Source of the DNA: Bartonella sp. ML69XJBT
Lineage (GTDB): Bacteria > Pseudomonadota > Alphaproteobacteria > Rhizobiales > Rhizobiaceae
Direction: 5' to 3'
Length of the DNA stretch: 64,000 bases
Assembly: GCF_028618515.1 (NCBI RefSeq)
Contig: NZ_JAQITB010000004.1
Coordinates: 1-64,000, forward strand
A model generated the notes under the pieces. That model saw only the letters and a list, made by a program, of their open reading frames with translations. It searched no databases and had not been told where the DNA came from. The position numbers and the translations under genes are program-made. This document shows positions 23,690 to 31,873 of this stretch, one piece after another; position 1 is the stretch's first letter, and each line of letters starts with the position of its first letter.

Positions 23690-24442
23690 ATGGAATACAG
23701 AGGGACGTTTGAAGACCTTCAAAACATGATTCACAAGTGTGGATATCAAATCAGAGAAACCAAACCTATACAAAATGCATCCAAGAAATCAGCGCATCAA
23801 ATCAGAACCTCTGATGGAGGTATCATTAATTGGTATGAAAGCACAGGAACACTTTACGTTCAAGGCAAAGATCAAGCAGCAAAAAAGCTACAAGAAGCTT
23901 TAACTCCATATCTAGCAGAAACATCAACGACTCCTTCTCCACAGATTTCTTCCAATATCGCACAAGCACCTTCCCCAAAAATTTTTATCGTTCATGGTCA
24001 TGATCATGTTGCCCTAGAGCAAGTTAGGCTAGTTCTTTACGATCTTGGCCTCGAACCATACATCTTACCTATCAATAATGGTTTAACTATCATTGAAGCT
24101 TTGGAAAAAGAAATCTGTGAGACAACCCGTTCTACAAAATTCGGTATTGTACTGCTTACTCCTGATGACATGGGCTATGTTAAAACTGCCGGTGAAAAAA
24201 CAGCCCAACCCCGTGCGCGCCAAAATGTCATTCTCGAAATGGGTATGTTAATCTCTGTGCTTACACGAAAAAATGTCGCTATTCTCATAAAACAACATGT
24301 TGAAATCCCTTCAGATGCTCAGGGAATTATATACATTCCTTTTAATGACCACGTAAAAGAAACAGTTCCTCAACTTGCTGGTCGACTGATAGACGCTGGA
24401 TTCACCATAGATCCAAAGAAACTTGCCCTTGCATCACGTTAA
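23690..24442 (+). CDS. TIR-like nucleotide-binding protein (PF10137 type)
   Basis: The C-terminal half (about 97-240) is a TIR-like domain of the predicted nucleotide-binding family used as effectors in Cap12 and PycTIR anti-phage proteins. It begins KIFIVHGHDHVALEQVRLVL, continues with GIVLLTPDDMGY (152-163), and has RARQNVILEMGML (175-187), where Glu183 sits at the position of the NAD-cleaving glutamate. Residues 1-77 form a small separate domain ending YESTGTLYVQGKDQAAKKL, reminiscent of the TBP-like substrate domain of RNase HIII and RnlA. A proline-rich linker joins them. No cyclase, Argonaute or SIR2 gene is adjacent. A defence role as an NAD-depleting effector is inference from the family. 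Confidence 0.85.
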   Translation: MEYRGTFEDLQNMIHKCGYQIRETKPIQNASKKSAHQIRTSDGGIINWYESTGTLYVQGKDQAAKKLQEALTPYLAETSTTPSPQISSNIAQAPSPKIFIVHGHDHVALEQVRLVLYDLGLEPYILPINNGLTIIEALEKEICETTRSTKFGIVLLTPDDMGYVKTAGEKTAQPRARQNVILEMGMLISVLTRKNVAILIKQHVEIPSDAQGIIYIPFNDHVKETVPQLAGRLIDAGFTIDPKKLALASR

Positions 24443-24651
24443 ATTTGCATAATGTTTATCTTTCCTTTTTAGAGCACACGCCGTTCGCTTATCATCTTCT
24501 TGAGCAAACAAGATCCATGAGCAAAACAGCGAAGCTATTTCGAAAATTCTAGAGGCTCTCCTTTTTTCATTTTTTGATCAAACGCCTCCCACACCACAAA
24601 ACTGTCATCATTTTTATTGCCAATATGCTAAAAATATATTTTAATCCCACA

Positions 24652-24847
24652 AGCAACAATCAAGAGAGATTTAAAATTTCTAAATCCGAGCATAAAAAGA
24701 AAACAACTCTGCGAACATCTTTGGGATTCCGGGAGATTTTGCACTGTCCAAGTGCTTACCAGCACTAAAAGCAAAATGCTGACTAGGGTTCAGTTCTTTC
24801 AACTCCCGGAATACCAATGCGAGGGCGCTCGCAACCGGCAGAGGGAA
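24652..24847 (+). ncRNA. Degenerate Brt-like leader RNA, unit 0
   Basis: This is a worn copy of the structured leader seen in the five other units of the island. TTGCCA (24617) and TTTAAT (24640), 17 bp apart, precede it. It keeps the GGGATTCCGGGAG stem, the CTAGGGTT strand and the GCGAGGGCGCTCGC hairpin. The start codon of the regulator is lost (GGAATAACC replaces GGAAATGCA) and the regulator itself is deleted: its first bases run straight into the promoter of unit 1. Confidence 0.65.
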
Positions 24848-24921
24848 TAACCACAAACCAGAAATCCTCAGAACAACATTCTCATTGGCAAAAATTGCTT
24901 CAAGAGCTGTCGTCATTCTTA

Positions 24922-24950
24922 TTGCCAATCCTCTCAAATTACTTTATGAA
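24922..24950 (+). promoter_or_regulatory. Promoter of leader RNA unit 1
   Basis: TTGCCA and TATGAA are separated by exactly 17 bp. The same pair (TTGCCA or TTGTAA with TATGAA) stands at the same place in every intact unit of the two clusters, although the spacer differs, so it is probably a sigma-70 promoter. Confidence 0.7.
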
Positions 24951-24956
24951 TCGAGA

Positions 24957-25172
24957 GGTGTTTTGGTCGCATACGCAACGACCAATAGAGTGTTGGAAGC
25001 TCGAAAACTCAAACATGGAAATTGATCCTGCTTTGCAGGTGTCCCGGGATTCCGGGGGCTTTTGTTATGTCCAAGTGCCATAGGTACTAAAAGCAAAAGA
25101 CTGATTTGAGTTCAGTGCTTCCAACCTCCCGGAATAACAATGCGAGGGCGCTCGCAACCGGTGGGAGGGGAA
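24957..25172 (+). ncRNA. Brt-like structured leader RNA, unit 1
   Basis: About 215 nt precede the XRE gene. Visible stems: GGTCG/CGACC near the 5' end; long-range GTTGGAAGC/GCTTCCAAC and ACTCAAA/TTTGAGT; CCTGC/GCAGG; CCCGG/CCGGG; CTTTTG/CAAAAG; and GCGAG/CTCGC just before GGTGGGAGGGGAAATG. The long-range stems change sequence but stay paired in the other units. In Bartonella henselae a family of about 200-nt RNAs called Brt sits upstream of XRE-family Trp genes; this matches that layout. Confidence 0.8.
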
Positions 25173-25541
25173 ATGCAAAGTAAAAATCCTCAGAACAACA
25201 TTCTTATTGGCAAAAAAATTCGCTTCAGACGAAACATGCTGAAAATGTCTCAAAAACACTTAGGGCAGTCTTTAGGAGTAAGCTTCCAGCAAATTCAAAA
25301 ATATGAAACAGGATTAAATCGTGTTGGAGCTGGGCGTTTAAAGGAAATTGCTGATATCTTAAATGTTTCTATAGCCTTTTTTTACGCAGATCTCTTCACA
25401 AAACAACACCCACCCACTCATCATGATGAAGTTGCATCGAGCAGAGAAGAATATCTGCTTTTAAAAAATTTTAGAGTCCTCGCTAAAGTAAAACAAAAAG
25501 CAATTTTACAATTAATCTCTGAACCAAATGAAAACTTTTAA
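25173..25541 (+). CDS. XRE-family regulator (Trp-like), copy a
   Basis: The 122-residue protein has a Cro/C1 helix-turn-helix at about 14-68 (KMSQKHLGQSLGVSFQQIQK, then YETGLNRVGAGRLKEIADIL) and a C-terminal helical segment from about 85. I start at MQSKNPQNN, because the GGGAGGGG ribosome-binding site lies 4 bases upstream and this sequence belongs to the leader RNA. It is nearly identical to the other copies in the island. Its likely role is transcription control in tandem with the leader RNA. Confidence 0.9.
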   Translation: MQSKNPQNNILIGKKIRFRRNMLKMSQKHLGQSLGVSFQQIQKYETGLNRVGAGRLKEIADILNVSIAFFYADLFTKQHPPTHHDEVASSREEYLLLKNFRVLAKVKQKAILQLISEPNENF

Positions 25542-25667
25542 AATCATGCGGCCCCCCACAGGCTTTGTTTATCAGCATACAGCGTATTAAAAAAAGCATC
25601 CCTTTAAATGCTGATTGAATGAATAGCATGCCGCCTTTTATCTAAAGAAAAGCTGTGTTCATTCTTA

Positions 25668-25696
25668 TTGTAAATTTCCTGAAATTACTTTATGAA
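25668..25696 (+). promoter_or_regulatory. Promoter of leader RNA unit 2
   Basis: TTGTAA and TATGAA with exactly 17 bp between them, in the same position as in the other units. Confidence 0.7.
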
Positions 25697-25702
25697 TCGA
25701 GA

Positions 25703-25916
25703 GGTGTTTTGGTCGCATACGCAACGACCAAAAGGGATTCAAAACCCCTAAATCCGAGCGTAAAAATGAACCCGCTTTGCGGATATCCCGGAATTCCGGG
25801 AGATTTTGCTATGTCCAAGTGCTTACCAGCACTAAAAGCAAAATGCTGACTAGGGTTCAGTTCTTTCAACTCCCGGAATACCAACGCGAGGGCGCTCGCA
25901 ACCGGTGGGAGGGGAA
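25703..25916 (+). ncRNA. Brt-like structured leader RNA, unit 2
   Basis: Same order of stems as unit 1, with different paired sequences: the inner long-range stem is CCCTA/TAGGG instead of ACTCAAA/TTTGAGT. The hairpin CCCGCTTTGCGG, the CCCGGAATTCCGGGAG stem and the GCGAGGGCGCTCGC hairpin are kept. It ends in the GGGAGGGGAAATG start of copy b. Confidence 0.8.
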
Positions 25917-26294
25917 ATGCAAAGTAAAAATCCTTATAACGACAAATTCATTGATAAATTCATTGGCAAAAAAATTCGCTTCAGACGAAACATGCTGAAA
26001 ATGTCTCAAAAACACTTAGGGCAGTCTTTAGGAGTAAGTTTCCAACAAATTCAAAAGTATGAAAAAGGCTCAAACCGTGTAAGCGCTGGACGTTTAAAGG
26101 AAATTGCTGATATCTTAAATGTTTCTATAGCCTTTTTTTACGCTGATCTCTTCACACAACAACACCCACCCACTCATCATGATGAAGTTGCATCGAGCAG
26201 AGAAGAATATCTGCTTTTAAAAAATTTTAGAGTCCTCGCTAAAGTAAAACAAAAAGCAATTTTACAATTAATCTCTAACCAGAATGAAACCTAA
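25917..26294 (+). CDS. XRE-family regulator (Trp-like), copy b
   Basis: The 125-residue helix-turn-helix protein differs from copy a by a four-residue insertion near the N-terminus (NDKFIDKFIGKK) and by KGSNRVSAGR in place of TGLNRVGAGR in the recognition region. The latter could change DNA specificity. The C-terminal LLLKNFRVLAKVKQKAILQL is shared. It is the last unit of the plus-strand cluster. Confidence 0.9.
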   Translation: MQSKNPYNDKFIDKFIGKKIRFRRNMLKMSQKHLGQSLGVSFQQIQKYEKGSNRVSAGRLKEIADILNVSIAFFYADLFTQQHPPTHHDEVASSREEYLLLKNFRVLAKVKQKAILQLISNQNET

Positions 26295-26394
26295 AGAAAG
26301 AATGCGATACGCTCTATTTCTCCGCATGCATGGGTGTTTTAAAAAATTCCCTTCTTCATGTAGATGCCTTCTGATTGCAATGAAAAGCACACCA

Positions 26395-26530
26395 CTTTTC
26401 ATGCATCATTTCCAAACCTAGTGCTGGCATTCTTGCTTGTTGTGCCAGCATATACCATGTCGTTGCCATGACCATATCGGCTTTTGTGTTCGTGCTATTT
26501 TGGTAAGGCTTTTCTCGATAAAGCTTGATA
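26395..26530 (-). pseudogene. Decayed copy of the sel1 gene 3' end
   Basis: Bases 26397-26530 repeat the end of the adjacent Sel1 gene (26600-26730): GTGCCAGCATATACCATG and CATATCGGCTTTTGTG occur in both. Small insertions and stops break the frame. It lies just downstream of the intact gene. Confidence 0.8.
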
Positions 26531-26540
26531 GGTTTGTGTT

Positions 26541-27605
26541 TTAAAAAATAACTAGGAGATTTTCTGCTTCTTTGCGTGCTTTTTCCAGCTGTTTATCGTC
26601 CATTCCTTCAAGCATCATTTCAAGATCAGGTGCTTGTATTTTTGCTCGCTGTGCCAGCATATACCATGCCGCTGCCATGATCATATCGGCTTTTGTGCCT
26701 ATGCCGTCTCGATAAAGTCTGGCAAGGGAAACTTGTGCTGGCGCGATCATCTTGCTGGCGTTGCTGAAAAGCAAATGAAAAGCACGTTGAAAATCTGTTT
26801 CTCCTCCACGACCCTGTACAAGCCATTGGGCCAACAGAATTTGTGCTGAAGTATGGTTGTTTTGCGCCGCAACTTCCATGAGTTTGCGTGCATTGCGCTC
26901 ATCCTTTGGGCGCGTTAAAGTTCCCAGAGAAAGAATTTTTGCCGCAGCAAAAGAAGCTTCAGGATCGCCAAGAGCTGCACCTTTTAAGAACCATTTGAGC
27001 GCTTGCTCTATCGCTTCATTTTCACGACTTGGTGTGCTAACACCGGAAAGAATTTGCTTTTCGCGAGCAGCTTTATAAAGAAGCAGTTCTCCATAATAAA
27101 AATAGGCTTGCTCGACACCAGCATCTGCCGCTTTGCGAATAAATTCCTCACCAAGTTCTTGGTTTTGTGAAATAAAATTACCATCAAATAACATAAGCCC
27201 ATAACGCAATTGTGCCTGTGGCTCACCTTGTTTTGCTGCACGTCCAAACCACAAAGCGGCGCGTGCACCGTCAATAGGAACAGCACATCCTTCCATGTAA
27301 ATTCGAGCAACCAGAGTTTGGGCAAAGGGATCATTTTGTTCAGCGCGCCGGAGTGCTTCACGAAAAGCTTTCAGATAATAGCCTTGGATATAATAGTCAT
27401 AGGCTTGATCATATTCTCCAACTTGCAAAGGTTGAAAAGATTTGTCAGTATTTGAATTTGTTTGAATCGTATTTAAAGAGCGTTCAAGATTTGAAGATTC
27501 TTCAGCCATTCTCGTAGAATTTGCATCAGTGATGGCATTTGCAAAGCAAATCATTATCAGAGTGGAGAGCGCTACGTTTTTTTTTATCATGCCTTGCTTT
27601 ATCAT
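26541..27605 (-). CDS. Sel1-repeat secreted protein
   Basis: The 354-residue protein has a signal peptide (about 8-27) and at least six Sel1-like TPR repeats from about residue 75: AQTLVARIYMEG, AALWFGRAAKQGEPQAQLRY, QALKWFLKGAALGDPEA, AQILLAQWLVQG and AQVSLARLYRDGIG. Such proteins act as scaffolds in protein complexes; the partner here is unknown. The start at 27605 has GGGGAGGAG 5 bases upstream. In relatives it sits between the thiE-like gene and efp, so it is probably core, with accessory DNA inserted on both sides. Confidence 0.85.
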   Translation of the reverse strand: MIKQGMIKKNVALSTLIMICFANAITDANSTRMAEESSNLERSLNTIQTNSNTDKSFQPLQVGEYDQAYDYYIQGYYLKAFREALRRAEQNDPFAQTLVARIYMEGCAVPIDGARAALWFGRAAKQGEPQAQLRYGLMLFDGNFISQNQELGEEFIRKAADAGVEQAYFYYGELLLYKAAREKQILSGVSTPSRENEAIEQALKWFLKGAALGDPEASFAAAKILSLGTLTRPKDERNARKLMEVAAQNNHTSAQILLAQWLVQGRGGETDFQRAFHLLFSNASKMIAPAQVSLARLYRDGIGTKADMIMAAAWYMLAQRAKIQAPDLEMMLEGMDDKQLEKARKEAENLLVIF

Positions 27606-27955
27606 GAATGCTCCTCCCCCATCAATAAGAAGAAATTTTTACATTTTTCTTTCATCATTTCAAGCAGGAACACAGGGTTATCCCTGTGAAAAAAACATAA
27701 AGATACATCTGGCTTTATCACCTTATCAAGGGATGTAAAATTGCTTTGCCTTTGAATAAAGGGAAGGCTTTTATCATCTTTGTTTGTTGCTGTGTTCATT
27801 GAATAAGGCGTAAGAAGATAAAATGGCATTCTTTTATACCCAAATAGCCGATAGAAAACGCTAATAATAGAAGAAATTAAAAAACTTCAAAAAAATGAGG
27901 GCAATGGGCAGTAGCTAAAACACAAAGCAAAGCACCAGCAAAATTATGAACGAAA

Positions 27956-28234
27956 TCAAAGCGGCATTTGAAGTATATCAGAAACCAGAGGAGAAATAGG
28001 TGGTTGTATCTGTTGTATTGTTTGCATATCCAACCAAAATTTCGCTTTACTAAAACCAGCTCATTCTTATTTAACTGCAAGCTCAATACTCATAGAAGCA
28101 TGTCCGTTAAGCACTCTTAAGAGAGAAGCTCTTGTCATATGGAGATGATCCGCTAACTTTTGTATTGTTATCCCCATTTCTTGCAAGAAAGTGACTTTTA
28201 GAACTTCGCCCGGATGTGCGGGGTTATGCATCAT
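27956..28234 (-). pseudogene. Frameshifted HigA antitoxin gene
   Basis: The minus strand encodes MMHNPAHPGEVLKVTFLQEM and GITIQKLADHLHMTRASLLR, then VLNGHASMSIELAVK and a stop, with the continuation SKAKFWLDMQTIQQIQPP in another frame. MHNPxHPGEVL, the helix-turn-helix and FWLxMQ are the marks of HigA addiction-module antidotes. AAAGGAACG precedes the start. One frameshift after residue 55 removes the C-terminus. Confidence 0.85.
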
Positions 28235-28252
28235 TTGTTTTCGTTCCTTTCA

Positions 28253-28425
28253 TGAATGGTGGTCTTGATAATCAACAAGCTCCACATCTGTTCTTATAAA
28301 ACGAAAAGTAAAACACCCATTTCCATTCAGCTCTATAGAATAATATCTGTTCACCTTTAAGAGGATACATTTTGAAAGCCAAGTGCTCTCAACATTTCAA
28401 AGGTAGTAACACTTGTTAAAGCCGT
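28253..28425 (-). pseudogene. Remnant of the HigB toxin gene
   Basis: Just upstream of the higA remnant the minus strand gives TTFEMLRALGFQNVSS and, after a frame change, YYSIELNGNGCFTFRF followed by VELVDYQDHHS. This corresponds to the C-terminal half of HigB toxins (YSIRVNxxxRxxFRF ... VDYxDYH). The N-terminal half is gone and stops are present. Gene order toxin-antitoxin matches higBA. Confidence 0.7.
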
Positions 28426-28700
28426 TAAGATAACACACAATTGTCATTCGCACGTCTTGTTGTATACTATTACTATACGGTCAATAAAAATAAGATAAAA
28501 CATCATACTGGCAAATCTGGTTACATATTTGGATAAAATGATTAAAAATAGGCTATGAAACGGTTTGGGATAGACAGAAAAATTTATCCATTCTGACTAG
28601 AAATGAGGGTTATTATGAAGGCGCAAATCCCTTTACCTTTCACAAGAGCTTTTAAGTTTTTGCGTCTCAAATATAGAAAATGTCTACATTAAATAGCGAG
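28426..28700. other. Spacer without a gene
   Basis: AT-rich sequence between the higBA remnant and the TrbH-like gene. No open frame, hairpin or repeat that I can support. Confidence 0.35.
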
Positions 28701-29102
28701 TTATTTATTCTTATAAATATGTAGATAATAACTTGGTTCTCCAGCCCACTCATACTGAAGAACAGAAATTATACGTCCATCATTCTTTGGTGTGAGTGTG
28801 TAAAACAAATTTACACCCATGTTTTGTTGCTTTTGAGGTTGATCTGTATAGATCACATTATATCCATTCTGTCGCAACAGATTGATAAATAAAGGCGTAA
28901 AGTTGTCTGCTGTATTATTTTTCTTTATAATAACTGTGCTTGTAGCTGATGGTAAAGGTTTTTTGATAACGTGAACATAATCATTAGCAATGAATTTGGC
29001 AGTATTCTTCGTAATACCTTGACCGACATAATTTGATGAAAGACCTACAGATGCGCAACCCGCCGCCAACACAAGCGGTGATAGCAATAAATATTTTAAC
29101 AT
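28701..29102 (-). CDS. TrbH-like lipoprotein
   Basis: The 133-residue protein has a lipoprotein signal ending LAAGC (Cys16). It is followed by a domain with NTAKFIANDYVHVIKKPLPS, then NFTPLFINLLRQNGYNVIYT and LFYTLTPKNDGRIISVLQ. The layout resembles TrbH lipoproteins of conjugative systems. GGGGGGA lies 7 bases before the ATG. No other trb gene is near, so it may be a cargo gene or a leftover of a lost conjugative element. Confidence 0.55.
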   Translation of the reverse strand: MLKYLLLSPLVLAAGCASVGLSSNYVGQGITKNTAKFIANDYVHVIKKPLPSATSTVIIKKNNTADNFTPLFINLLRQNGYNVIYTDQPQKQQNMGVNLFYTLTPKNDGRIISVLQYEWAGEPSYYLHIYKNK

Positions 29103-29409
29103 CTTTAATTCCCCCCTTCATTTTTACTTTCTCTTAGGAAGTTCTCACACAAGAAAGAAAAGCAACTTTTCTATAATTGTACTACCACATATCGGTATCC
29201 AATTAAGCGTTAAGTCATCAATTTTTACACGTTGTTTAAAAAAACTTCCATCATTTCCATAGCATTTAAAGCTTATGCTTAACATACAAAATAAAATGAT
29301 GCGTTAGGTGATACTCTAAATTGACCAAATAAACTTTTAAGCACTCCGAGGCTACCTTTAAGAATACGCATGATTGCAGATGCACAAAGCTTGTGGAGCG
29401 TGTATGATG
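29103..29409. other. Spacer between the TrbH-like gene and XRE copy c
   Basis: No gene. The right end, from about 29340, is a worn version of the conserved tail that follows the XRE genes (ATACGCATG and GGAGCGTGTAT-like blocks). Confidence 0.4.
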
Positions 29410-29790
29410 CTAAAAGCTTTCATTTGGTTCAGACAGCAGCTGTAAAATCGCTCTTTGTTTTATCGTAGTGAGAACACGAAATCTTTTCAAAAGCAGATAT
29501 TCTTCTCTGCTCGATGCAACTTCATCATGATGGGTTGGGGTGTGTTGTTTTGTGAAGAGATCTGCGTAAAAAAAGGCTATAGAAACATTTAAGATATCAG
29601 CAATTTTCTTTAAACGTCCAGCGCTTACACGGTTTGAGCCTTTTTCATACTTTTGAATTTGTTGGAAACTTACTCCTAAAGACTGCCCTAAGTGTTTTTG
29701 AGACATTTTCAGCATGTTTCGTCTAAAGCGAATTTTTTTGCCAATGAATTTGTCATTGAAAATGTCGTTATAAGAATTTTTACTTTGCAT
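29410..29790 (-). CDS. XRE-family regulator (Trp-like), copy c
   Basis: The 126-residue helix-turn-helix protein resembles copy b in the recognition region (EKGSNRVSAGRLKKIADILN) but has a diverged C-terminus (LLLKRFRVLTTIKQRAILQL). I start at MQSKNSYND, placed after GGGAGGGGAA. It is the last unit of the minus-strand cluster. Confidence 0.9.
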   Translation of the reverse strand: MQSKNSYNDIFNDKFIGKKIRFRRNMLKMSQKHLGQSLGVSFQQIQKYEKGSNRVSAGRLKKIADILNVSIAFFYADLFTKQHTPTHHDEVASSREEYLLLKRFRVLTTIKQRAILQLLSEPNESF

Positions 29791-30007
29791 TTCCCCTCCC
29801 ACCGGTTGCGAGCGCCCTCGCATTGGTATTCCGGGAGTTTGAAAGCACTGAGCTTAATCAGCCTTTTGCTTTTAGTGCTGTAACAGCACCTGGACATAGC
29901 AAAAGCTCCCGGAATCCGGGAGATACCCACAAAGTGGGTTTATTTTATGTATTAAGCTTTCGGGCTTTCAAATCCCTATTGGTCGCTGCGTATACGACCA
30001 AAACATC
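29791..30007 (-). ncRNA. Brt-like structured leader RNA, unit c
   Basis: Same architecture as the other units. The long-range stems here are GCTTTCAAA/TTTGAAAGC and ATTAAGCT/AGCTTAAT, different in sequence from every other unit but fully paired. The promoter pair TTGTAA/TATGAA with 17-bp spacing is at 30042-30014 on the minus strand. Confidence 0.8.
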
Positions 30008-30013
30008 TTTTGA

Positions 30014-30042
30014 TTCATAAAGTAATTTGAAATTATTTACAA
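30014..30042 (-). promoter_or_regulatory. Promoter of leader RNA unit c
   Basis: On the minus strand TTGTAA and TATGAA are 17 bp apart, in the conserved position. Confidence 0.7.
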
Positions 30043-30112
30043 TAAAAATGACGACAGTGTTTCTTAACATATCATTTTTTAAGGTGAGTAGTGGTGTGCT
30101 TTTCATGCAATT

Positions 30113-30145
30113 AAAAAGCCTCATATTGAGAGAGGCTTTTAAAAA
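30113..30145 (-). terminator. Rho-independent terminator after XRE copy d
   Basis: On the minus strand a 9-bp stem (AAAAGCCTC/GAGGCTTTT) is followed by a T run. It lies downstream of XRE copy d and ahead of the next unit's promoter. The same element occurs at 30887-30920. Confidence 0.75.
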
Positions 30146-30187
30146 TACGCATGCATGCGGAGAAACAGAGCGTATAAAATCCTCTCT

Positions 30188-30565
30188 TTAGATCTCATTC
30201 TGATCAGAGATTAATTGCAAAATTGCTCTTTGTTTTACTTTAGCGAGGACTCTAAAATTTTTTAAAAGCAGATATTCTTCTCTGCTCGATGCAACTTCAT
30301 CATGATGAGTGGGAGTATGTTGTTGTGTGAAGAGATCAGCGTAAAAAAAGGCTATAGGAACATTTAAGATATCAGCAATTTCCTTTAAACGCCCAGCTCC
30401 AACACGATTTAATCCTGTTTCATATTTTTGAATTTGCTGGAAGCTTACTCCTAAAGACTGTCCTAATTGTTTTTGAGATATTTTCAGCATGTTTCGTCTG
30501 AAGCGAATTTTTTTGCCAACGAATTTATCAATGAATTTGTCGTTATAAGGATTTTTACTTTGCAT
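30188..30565 (-). CDS. XRE-family regulator (Trp-like), copy d
   Basis: The 125-residue protein has a helix-turn-helix (MLKISQKQLGQSLGVSFQQI, then QKYETGLNRVGAGRLKEIAD) and ends LISDQNEI. It combines the longer N-terminus of copy b with the TGLNRVGAG recognition segment of copy a, as if segments had been exchanged between copies. GGGAGGGG stands 4 bases before the ATG. Confidence 0.9.
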   Translation of the reverse strand: MQSKNPYNDKFIDKFVGKKIRFRRNMLKISQKQLGQSLGVSFQQIQKYETGLNRVGAGRLKEIADILNVPIAFFYADLFTQQHTPTHHDEVASSREEYLLLKNFRVLAKVKQRAILQLISDQNEI

Positions 30566-30781
30566 TTCCCCTCCCACCGGTTGCGAGCGCCCTCGCATTG
30601 TTATTCCGGGAGGTTGGAAGCACTGAACTCAAATCAGTCTTTTGCTTTTAGTACCTATGGCACTTGGACATAACAAAAGCCCCCGGAATCCCGGGACACC
30701 TGCAAAGCAGGATCAATTTCCATGTTTGAGTTTTCGAGCTTCCAACACTCTATTGGTCGTTGCGTATGCGACCAAAACACC
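30566..30781 (-). ncRNA. Brt-like structured leader RNA, unit d
   Basis: Long-range stems GTTGGAAGC/GCTTCCAAC and ACTCAAA/TTTGAGT, the same as unit 1 on the other strand. The other hairpins are conserved. This unit and unit 1 are near-identical inverted copies. Confidence 0.8.
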
Positions 30782-30787
30782 TCTCGA

Positions 30788-30816
30788 TTCATAAAGTAAT
30801 TTCAGGAAATTTACAA
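30788..30816 (-). promoter_or_regulatory. Promoter of leader RNA unit d
   Basis: TTGTAA and TATGAA on the minus strand with 17 bp between them. Confidence 0.7.
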
Positions 30817-30886
30817 TAAGAATGACGACAGTGTTTCTTAACATATCATTTTTTAAGGTGAGTAGTGGTGTGCTTTTCATGCAATT

Positions 30887-30920
30887 AAAAAGCCTCATAT
30901 TGAGAGAGGCTTTTAAAAAC
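30887..30920 (-). terminator. Rho-independent terminator after XRE copy e
   Basis: A second copy of the AAAAGCCTC/GAGGCTTTT stem with a T run on the minus strand, downstream of the frameshifted XRE copy e. Confidence 0.75.
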
Positions 30921-30961
30921 ACCCATGCATGCGGAGAAACAGAGCGTATCACATTCTTTCT

Positions 30962-31340
30962 TTAGGTTTCATTCTGATCAGAGATTAATTGCAAAATTGC
31001 TCTTTGTTTTACTTTAGCAAGGACTCTAAAATTTTTTAAAAGCAGATATTCTTCTCTGCTCGATGCAACTTCATCATGATGAGTGGGAGTATGTTGTTGT
31101 GTAAAGAGATCAGCGTAAAAAAAAGGCAATGGGAACATTTAAGATATCAGCAATTTCCTTTAAACGCCCAGCTCCAACACGATTTAATCCTGTTTCATAT
31201 TTTTGAATTTGCTGGAAGCTTACTCCTAAAGACTGCCCTAAGTGTTTTTGAGACATTTTCAGCATGTTTCGTCTGAAGCGAATTTTTTTGCCAACGAATT
31301 TATCAATGAATTTGTCGTTATGAAGATTTTTACTTTGCAT
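30962..31340 (-). pseudogene. XRE-family regulator copy e, frameshifted in a poly-A tract
   Basis: The first 76 residues match the other copies, including the whole helix-turn-helix. The frame then breaks after NVPIAFF because the homopolymer at 31117-31124 has eight bases, against seven in copy d. The remaining codons to LISDQNET continue in another frame. The truncated product would be an intact DNA-binding domain without the C-terminal helices. A single-base slip could restore the gene. Confidence 0.85.
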
Positions 31341-31553
31341 TTCCCCTCCCACCGGTTGCGAGCGCCCTCGCATTGGTATTCCGGGAGTTAAAAGCACTGA
31401 ACTCAAATCAGCATTTTGCTTTTAGTGCTGGTAAGCACTTGGACATAGCAAAATCTCCCGGAATCCCGGGATACCCGCAAAGCGGATTCATTTTATGTTT
31501 GAGTTTTCAGGCTTTTAATCCCTATTGATCGCCGCGTATGCGACCAAAACACC
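31341..31553 (-). ncRNA. Brt-like structured leader RNA, unit e
   Basis: Long-range stems TTAAAAGC/GCTTTTAA and AACTCAAA/TTTGAGTT, plus the GTGCTGGTAAGCAC hairpin and the CCCGGAATCCCGGGAT-type stem. The promoter pair is TTGCCA/TATGAA at 31588-31560, again with 17-bp spacing. Confidence 0.8.
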
Positions 31554-31559
31554 TTTTGA

Positions 31560-31588
31560 TTCATAAAGTAATTTGAGAGGATTGGCAA
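31560..31588 (-). promoter_or_regulatory. Promoter of leader RNA unit e
   Basis: On the minus strand TTGCCA and TATGAA are separated by 17 bp. The sequence equals that of unit 1 on the plus strand. Confidence 0.7.
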
Positions 31589-31599
31589 TAAAAATGACG

Positions 31600-31660
31600 A
31601 CAGCTCTTGAAGCAATTTTTTGCCAATAAGAATGTTGTTCTGAGGATTTTTACTTTGCAT
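31600..31660 (-). pseudogene. XRE copy f, deleted down to its first codons
   Basis: The start MQSKNPQNNILIGKK of the XRE gene is joined, in place of the helix-turn-helix, to sequence normally found upstream of the next unit's promoter. The reading frame runs on to 31493 as a 55-residue chimera that overlaps the leader of unit e. The same junction occurs at unit 0 on the other side of the island. Confidence 0.75.
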
Positions 31661-31873
31661 TTCCCCTCCCACCGGTTGCGAGCGCCCTCGCATTGGTATT
31701 CCGGGAGTAACAAGTACTGAACCCTAGTCAGCATTTTGCTTTTAGTGCTGTTAAGCACTTGGACATAGCAAAATCTCCCGGAATCCCGGGACACCCGCAA
31801 AGCGGGTTCATTTTTACGCTAGGGTTTAGGGCTTGTTGTCCCTCTTGGTCGTTGCGTATGCGACCAAAACATC
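31661..31873 (-). ncRNA. Brt-like structured leader RNA, unit f
   Basis: The leader is intact although its regulator is deleted. Long-range stems AACAAG/CTTGTT and AACCCTAG/CTAGGGTT, ACCCGC/GCGGGT, the CCCGGAATCCCGGGA stem and GCGAG/CTCGC are all present. TTGTAA/TATGAA with 17-bp spacing is at 31908-31880. It may persist as a free-standing RNA. Confidence 0.78.

Follow-up and report, generated by a model that had tools for sequence, protein, structure and literature searches.

The stretch of DNA analysed here (the window) comprises 64,000 nucleotides (nt) of Bartonella sp. ML69XJBT (contig NZ_JAQITB010000004.1, positions 1 to 64,000) and carries seven copies of a leader RNA, six with a full leader and one decayed. 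The 20-mer of the 3' hairpin, with up to three mismatches, occurs seven times in the window as compared to 0.01 expected. The six full units (1, 2, c, d, e and f) are Brt-type RNAs, a type published for Bartonella, and most of them are followed by a Trp-type regulator. The Brt/Trp pairs of Bartonella henselae (Tu et al. 2016, PMC5387305) are likewise multicopy, with an RNA of about 200 nt directly before a helix-turn-helix (HTH) gene of XRE type, a most conserved 3' end and a proposed cis role; a riboswitch-type hypothesis for Brt/Trp is already in print there. The whole genome of ML69XJBT contains 20 matches to the element, and the stretch of unit 1 found five matches among plasmid records, all five in Bartonella.

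Unit 1 lies on the forward strand and extends from its 5' hairpin to the Shine-Dalgarno site (24963-25170). Its RNA, with ends derived from the sequence, measures 199 nt (24963-25161), within the published 194-203 nt (PMC5387305). A small hairpin, GAG[TGTTGGAAG]CTC (24988-25002; closed by GGG/CCC in other copies, with changes on both sides in relatives), presents the a1-type strand GTTGGAAGC (24992-25000), the 5' side of the outer stem, and is followed by the b1-type strand ACTCAAA (25007-25013), the 5' side of the long-range stem; both strands are supported by the swap test and the aligned relatives described below. A local hairpin CCTGC/GCAGG (25027-25039), obtained on folding and also a helix in relatives, precedes strand S1 (TCCCGGG, 25042-25048), which in unit 1 and in relatives is a local alternative partner of strand S2 (ATTCCGGGGG, 25049-25058), the 5' side of a predicted C4-type basal stem. 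The first core hairpin (25059-25099) with its conserved TATGTCCA/CTAAAAG internal loop is followed by a second hairpin, CTGA[TTTGAGT]TCAG (25101-25115), whose loop (25105-25111) is the b'-type strand or 3' side of the long-range stem, then by the a'-type strand GCTTCCAAC (25117-25125; 3' side of the outer stem) and by strand S3 (CTCCCGGAAT, 25126-25135), the 3' side of the basal stem and a candidate alternative partner of the Shine-Dalgarno site. A hairpin GCGAG/CTCGC (25142-25155) near the published 3' end of Brt RNA and the Shine-Dalgarno site GGGAGGGG (25163-25170) complete the leader, and an ATG at 25173 opens a Trp-type open reading frame (ORF) of 122 amino acids (aa; 25173-25541, forward strand), an HTH_3 regulator by Pfam.

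HTH_3 ORFs were recognised by Pfam after units 1, 2, c, d and e. Unit 2 (25709-25914, forward strand; b1-type strand 25752-25758, S2 25793-25802, b' loop 25850-25856, S3 25870-25879), both of whose loop codes are mismatched, precedes an ORF at 25917-26294. Units c to f occupy the reverse strand. The leader of unit c (29793-30001) has a1 at 29964-29972, b1 at 29952-29957, S2 at 29906-29915, the b' hairpin at 29848-29861, a' at 29838-29846 and S3 at 29828-29837, with its ORF at 29410-29790; that of unit d (30568-30775) has a1 at 30738-30746, b1 at 30725-30731, S2 at 30680-30689, the b' hairpin at 30623-30637, a' at 30613-30621 and S3 at 30603-30612, with its ORF at 30188-30565. In unit e (31343-31547; b1 31498-31504, S2 31455-31464, b' hairpin 31397-31411, a' 31388-31395, S3 31378-31387) the ORF is shortened to 76 aa from its ATG (31110-31340), as compared to 122 to 126 aa in the paralogues. 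No ORF of at least 80 aa directly follows the leader of unit f (31663-31867; b1 31819-31825, S2 31775-31784, b' hairpin 31717-31731, a' 31709-31715, S3 31698-31707), and a Trp-type ORF was recognised neither there nor after the decayed copy. Genes thus seem to be lost while leaders stay, given the short ORF of unit e and the lack of one directly after unit f. The decayed seventh copy (24715-24843, forward strand), which falls outside the span of 24957-31873 originally assigned to the array, retains the core and the 3' hairpin only, with 2 base pairs (bp) between b' and b1 and no match to the 5' hairpin; a mechanically called ORF of 88 aa (24817-25083) begins in this region and reaches into unit 1.

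The original prediction had placed the long-range stem at ACTCAAA/TTTGAGT in units 1, d and e, at CCCTA/TAGGG in 2 and f and at AGCTTAAT/ATTAAGCT in c, with an outer stem that changes on both sides together, and had read this as direct covariation. The first (7 bp) and the last of these pairings are confirmed on the sequence; that of unit f is longer than proposed (ACCCTAG/CTAGGGT, 7 bp), whereas that of unit 2 has only 5 bp and overlaps in part with the stem that closes the upstream hairpin. The two-sided change of the outer stem holds in units 1 and d (GTTGGAAGC/GCTTCCAAC), c (TTTGAAAGC/GCTTTCAAA), e (TTAAAAGC/GCTTTTAA) and f (AACAAG/CTTGTT), but not in unit 2, which pairs over 4 bp at best. 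Five of the six units therefore support covariation, which also exceeds that of swapped partners across the Bartonella copies. These copies number 198 (full-length and distinct, from fetched loci that represent only part of all copies), of which two could not be parsed; 11 of the remaining 196, being without CTGA..TCAG, were omitted from the loop test. At least 6 Watson-Crick bp between b' and b1 were found in 126 of 177 distinct loop/leader combinations as compared to 6.5% of swapped partners, with 37 distinct b' loops among 185 copies, and at least 7 between a' and a1 in 125 of 188 (11.5% swapped). Within the ML69XJBT genome, 14 of 18 full copies reach at least 6 bp between b' and b1. As paralogues are related, the swap control gives no strict probability, and swaps and shuffles throughout ignore relatedness; minimum-free-energy folding of single units is blind to pseudoknots.

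Unit 2 looks like a recombinant, since both of its long-range stems are mismatched and its strands fit other copies: its correctly placed strand, ATCCGAG, is complementary to the loop CTCGGAT of a copy on another contig of the same genome (L006_3131), and its b' fits b1 of unit f. An insulation of paralogues, in which each copy would own its code, is unsupported, as several copies in the genome share codes. The match of the codes also goes with the state of the gene: a downstream ORF of at least 100 aa follows 98 of 130 code-matched and 26 of 53 mismatched Bartonella copies (183 copies; Fisher p = 0.0009, relatedness ignored). This association, and the presence of the same leader before regulators in many bacteria, support a cis-regulatory role.

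The element was found in 49 of 71 sampled Bartonella genomes by DNA and model searches, the other 22 being without a match. A search of the family at the DNA level returned Bartonella only (2 of 199), and the restriction to the genus that this implied was overturned by covariance models. Model R1, built from 38 Bartonella copies, matched 13 genomes from 11 other genera among 394; one match (G344) is weak and on reading lacks the element, and most of the loci outside the genus keep the order of elements in other letters. In the order, R1 matched four of 397 genomes, two of them outside Bartonella, a count that underestimates because the filters were strict and eight candidates were scored per genome. 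Among the genomes sampled, model R2 matched 99 of 297 in the family, 43 of 337 in the class and 21 of 200 in the phylum, and of these 21 genomes 13 lie outside the class; these counts include ML69XJBT and other Bartonella where sampled, and the E-values of the models are rough. Brt RNAs are called genus-specific in PMC5387305, which is too narrow, as relatives occur in other genera, other orders and one more class.

Many of these relatives precede a gene of the TraM family. The leader before such a gene has matches in 359 plasmid records, of which 264 are typed as conjugative. Among eight annotated regions TraM is the next gene in four, pTi of C58 being one of them, and two have an HTH regulator there; in the other two, the strand of the leader shows no annotated gene immediately behind it. 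A pattern scan gave at least 120 stretches; among the matches listed, 104 leaders were left after removal of chance hits, and BLASTP grouped their downstream ORFs into TraM-like (50), HTH (19), an unknown family (5) and AraC-like (3; labelled by eye). Pfam confirmed five TraM-type and two HTH-type proteins and gave no match for the one protein of the unknown family that was submitted. Elements of the same kind also precede phage antirepressor genes, and relatives lie on plasmids and viral contigs and are multicopy. The scan patterns bias the plasmid/pattern and the phage-type (viral) sets towards the conserved loop.

The pairings of the Bartonella copies recur in these relatives. In 88 aligned leaders from outside Bartonella, 38 of 58 pairs changed on both sides as compared to 25.5 after shuffling, and the covariation of 0.359 exceeded both shuffled (0.157; reached in 0 of 500) and slid alignments (0.06-0.09, at most 0.092); the covarying helices include both long-range stems and both closing hairpins. 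In the plasmid/pattern set, b' matched upstream in 89 of 106 leaders among the matches listed (451 of 3180 swapped), a count that still holds the ten chance-hit entries dropped from the clustering of downstream ORFs. The class-wide set gave at least 7 bp for b' in 47 of 57 (7.6% swapped) and at least 6 bp for a' in 50 of 57 (12%), and in the phage-type set at least 7 bp was reached in 49 of 73, both for a' (3.7%) and for the b' hairpin (11.1%). In each of the four sets, the match of a' and b' to a1 and b1 thus exceeds that of the swapped or shuffled control. Sequences were taken from greedily chosen lists into A1 (38 of 45), A2 (99 of 100), A3 (88 of 90) and A4 (44 of 55), with the rest excluded by hand; the A3 list had been cleared beforehand of chance hits, L161, L196, L273, L283 and near-identical rows. 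Eleven of 69 class-wide, one of 13 other-class and about 12 of 77 viral matches could not be parsed, and L409 was kept with its basal stem mis-parsed.

The strand CTCCCGGAAT (S3) had been proposed to pair either with an upstream strand or, through its CTCCC, with the GGGAG of the ribosome-binding site of the regulator. Both pairings are present, the upstream partner being ATTCCGGGAG (ATTCCGGGGG in units 1 and d), but the two-partner picture is too narrow, as TCCCGG is a further, local partner of the upstream strand. Judged from sequence, the CTCCCGGAAT helix is the basal stem S2:S3 of C4 type, predicted to be pseudoknotted with both long-range stems. The CTCCCGGAAT:ATTCCGGGAG helix is nearly invariant in Bartonella, with a few double changes. 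In relatives, 39 distinct S2/S3 combinations were 88.3% paired as compared to 77.3% after shuffling (maximum 81.5); they were tabulated directly, as MAFFT had misplaced the basal stem in the alignment of 88 leaders (67.8% paired), and L239, which shows no S3 pattern, was dropped. The S1:S2 hairpin scored at least 10 in 80% of the 88 relatives as compared to 13% when shuffled, by an alignment-free test. Duplex energies for three units of the window were -16.4 to -16.6 kcal/mol for S2:S3, -11.5 to -14.0 for S1:S2 and -10.2 to -13.3 for S3 with the Shine-Dalgarno site.

At the ribosome site itself, the Shine-Dalgarno region pairs with the a'/S3 strand over at least 7 bp in 38 of 67 leaders of all groups, as compared to 21% of swapped and 1.6% of shuffled partners; 29 of 104 leaders were left out, 27 without an assignable start and two without an S3 pattern. 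Within the TraM group the permutation gave p <= 0.0005, which supports a putative pairing of the Shine-Dalgarno site with the a'/S3 strand before traM. In Bartonella this pairing is short and unproven, and covariation cannot test it, since the sequence is nearly invariant. The proposal that the leader acts as a switch is partly supported: there is evidence for a cis-regulatory role, and mutually exclusive partners of the CTCCCGGAAT strand are present, but we infer rather than observe the Shine-Dalgarno step in this genus. Intrinsic terminators follow 17 of 58 class-wide copies (28 of 1160 shuffled), 16 of the 17 starting inside S3, and nine of 103 plasmid/pattern copies; by the criteria used, none follows any of 195 Bartonella copies. 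The published termination in Bartonella probably proceeds via Rho or decay, given the lack of such terminators.

The architecture resembles that of the C4 antisense RNA of phages P1 and P7, the mechanism of which is described in PMC5320573 and PMC12197685. The P1 annotation (AF234172) gives the order a1 (TTGACAG), b1 (GTTAGTGC), C4, a2 (TTGACAG), b2 (GTTAGTGA), icd and ant; within C4, the second hairpin bears b' in its loop, and a' directly precedes the 3' stem. The match of P1 b1 and b' (GTTAGTG/CACTAAC) was read by eye; the scripted 7-bp hit, with GU allowed, lay elsewhere in C4. A comparison by eye finds the same core fold in the leaders, with a basal stem, two hairpins, b' in the second loop and a' before the 3' stem, and the same order of a1, b1, basal stem, first hairpin, b' hairpin and a', then the ribosome site. 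Complementarity to a1 and b1 is seen in all four sets; complementarity to a2 and b2 is seen in the phage-type copies, where at least 7 bp downstream was reached by the b' hairpin in 44 of 73 (12% swapped) and by a' in 24 of 73 (3%). From these complementarities, the 3' half presumably has a choice of partners: a1 and b1 upstream or, in phage-type relatives, the copies a2 and b2 at the ribosome site. Five of seven ORFs after other-class leaders were of antirepressor kind by Pfam (AntA twice, Rha, Bro-N and P22_AR_N), and those after viral-contig leaders were read by eye. There are also differences: C4 is a processed RNA of 77 nt with a UUCG first hairpin, unlike the leaders with their long conserved first hairpin and shorter basal stem, and Bartonella has no detectable a2/b2 and an XRE regulator in place of ant.

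Other known RNAs come less close. No Rfam family reached its threshold at the element in the loci scanned. Below threshold, c4-a1b1 (RF03163) was seen in two loci (L386, E 4.6e-5; L388, 0.017), in both upstream of the core and on its strand, and sRNA-Xcc1 (RF02221) was seen over its full 87-position model in all eight small other-class loci (E 0.018 to 9.3) and in nine of 16 class-wide loci (E 0.0079 to 8.8), that is, in 17 of 24 small loci. The latter never reached its gathering score (20 to 34 bits as compared to 53) and was not among the matches for 24600-26000 of the window at E <= 5. The Group 1 C4-like small RNAs of Acinetobacter baumannii (PMC5320573) are similarly multicopy and abundant, with an a' loop that varies between copies; their C4 motif was assigned by Rfam search, a level that the leaders here do not reach. 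Group I intron and HDV-like topologies were set aside, as they differ in helix order. The leaders probably work like C4 and may belong to one superfamily with it, but their sequence establishes neither such membership nor homology to P1 C4.

Taken together, the units are probably the Bartonella branch of a large leader-RNA family built like the P1 C4 antisense system, with the 3' half as a putative repressor. When paired upstream with a1, b1 and S2, the 3' half would leave the gene open, and when paired at the ribosome site it would block translation; Rho or decay would then end the untranslated message, so that the short RNA would be abundant and the downstream message scarce. In some class-wide copies the intrinsic terminator overlapping S3 would take this part instead. 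As a2/b2 are undetectable in Bartonella, the candidate targets remaining there would be S3 with the Shine-Dalgarno site and the matching a1/b1 strands of other copies. The C4-type reading is favoured by published observations that a 3' deletion of brt1 raises trp1 (PMC8070961) and that Agrobacterium lacking Hfq has less TraM protein (PMC4201532).

Several results weigh against this reading. Outside the phage-type set there is little or no excess of a2/b2: at least 7 bp downstream was reached by the b' hairpin and by a' in nine (4% swapped) and one (3%) of 193 Bartonella copies, in nine (6%) and four (3%) of 103 plasmid/pattern copies, and in eight (9%) and six (3%) of 57 class-wide copies. None of 193 Bartonella copies reaches 7 Watson-Crick bp between S3 and the downstream region, and these strands hardly vary. 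The Shine-Dalgarno permutation was not significant in the HTH group (p = 0.29) or in two small groups (4 and 3 members), and S1:S2 is supported by the alignment-free test only, the aligned test not being decisive. R2 finds no match in the c4 region of P1, its best score in that locus being 4 bits, and none of the loci scanned matched an Rfam C4 model at gathering score. Antisense knock-down of Brt1 yielded no lengthened transcript (PMC5387305).

One alternative is that the covarying helices are a rigid scaffold of a stable free RNA or 5' insulator, with the gene cut off by constitutive termination or decay and no switching. Such a scaffold agrees with the abundance of Brt RNAs and the poor transcription of trp genes in RNA-seq (PMC5387305), as well as with the absence of intrinsic terminators from the 195 Bartonella copies and of detectable a2/b2; it is nevertheless unlikely, as S2 has two partners in relatives, matched codes go with intact ORFs, and relatives show terminators overlapping S3 and complementarity to the Shine-Dalgarno site. 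A metabolite riboswitch, in which the conserved first hairpin would be the aptamer and a ligand would toggle the basal stem and the downstream gene, appears quite improbable. The high conservation of the TATGTCCA/CTAAAG internal loop across classes, the variation of the expression platform between terminator and Shine-Dalgarno site, and the heme proposed for Brt1 in a review (PMC8070961) would fit it; the layout, however, equals that of an antisense RNA, phage-type copies have matching downstream targets as antisense systems do, and the downstream genes read share no metabolic theme. No Rfam riboswitch family was found at gathering score in the loci scanned, and none appeared in the E-value searches. 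Purely trans action of a' and b' on distant mRNAs such as badA, with the adjacency to trp due to hitch-hiking of a mobile pair, is likewise quite improbable, for although Brt knock-down raises badA (PMC5387305) and relatives lie on plasmids and viral contigs and are multicopy (20 matches in the ML69XJBT genome), a' and b' covary with strands of the same transcript in every set tested, which a distant target would not require, and small regulators follow the leader in many lineages.

Some further observations concern the surroundings of the leaders. Just upstream of the array, 23690-24442 encodes a protein of 250 aa with a CAP12/Pycsar-type TIR domain (Pfam PF10137), which matches PDC-S35, a candidate defence family of PADLOC (E 1.7e-101). 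Each of three Bartonella genomes with a size of 2.3 to 2.5 Mb (L066, L067 and L068) holds one strongly diverged copy near 1400-1700, in the same order and before an HTH-type ORF. Directly 5' of b1 in a traM-type leader, at the place expected for the a1 hairpin, is a group II intron end (Rfam RF00029; L161:1389-1461), and L196 has the same letters. A leader at L156:1530-1709 is followed by an ORF that by eye is transposase-like, as though it had taken the place of the original gene. About 1.3 kb from a phage-type leader lies a type II hammerhead ribozyme (L403:2912-2976; Rfam RF02276, E 6.7e-12).

Under the C4-type reading, the puzzle of the Brt "riboswitch" would become an antisense model that names its pairing partners and can be tested, and the Brt RNAs of Bartonella would be linked with a system of phage immunity; the main text of PMC5387305 mentions neither covariation, Shine-Dalgarno, C4 antisense, bacteriophage, antirepressor nor Agrobacterium. 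The relatives found in many other genera correct the genus-specific view of the Brt family. On Ti and rhizobial plasmids they also put a structured RNA that reaches the threshold of no Rfam family immediately ahead of traM, the antiactivator gene that contributes to setting the conjugation threshold. The regulation of traM is covered in PMC3907764; a leader or structured RNA before traM was not found in print, weak evidence of absence, as subscription papers lay outside the search.

More tentatively, and with considerable doubt, a phage-immunity antisense module may have been domesticated across the Alphaproteobacteria as a self-addressed leader. Most lineages would then have lost the ribosome-site targets while the codes stayed matched and diversified, and Brt RNAs might address matching leaders in cis or in trans. 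If so, each copy would carry a short address, and recombinants such as unit 2, with a b' that fits b1 of unit f, would rewire which leader answers which RNA. Such rewiring would include the Ti and symbiotic plasmids, where the gene under control is the quorum-sensing antiactivator traM.

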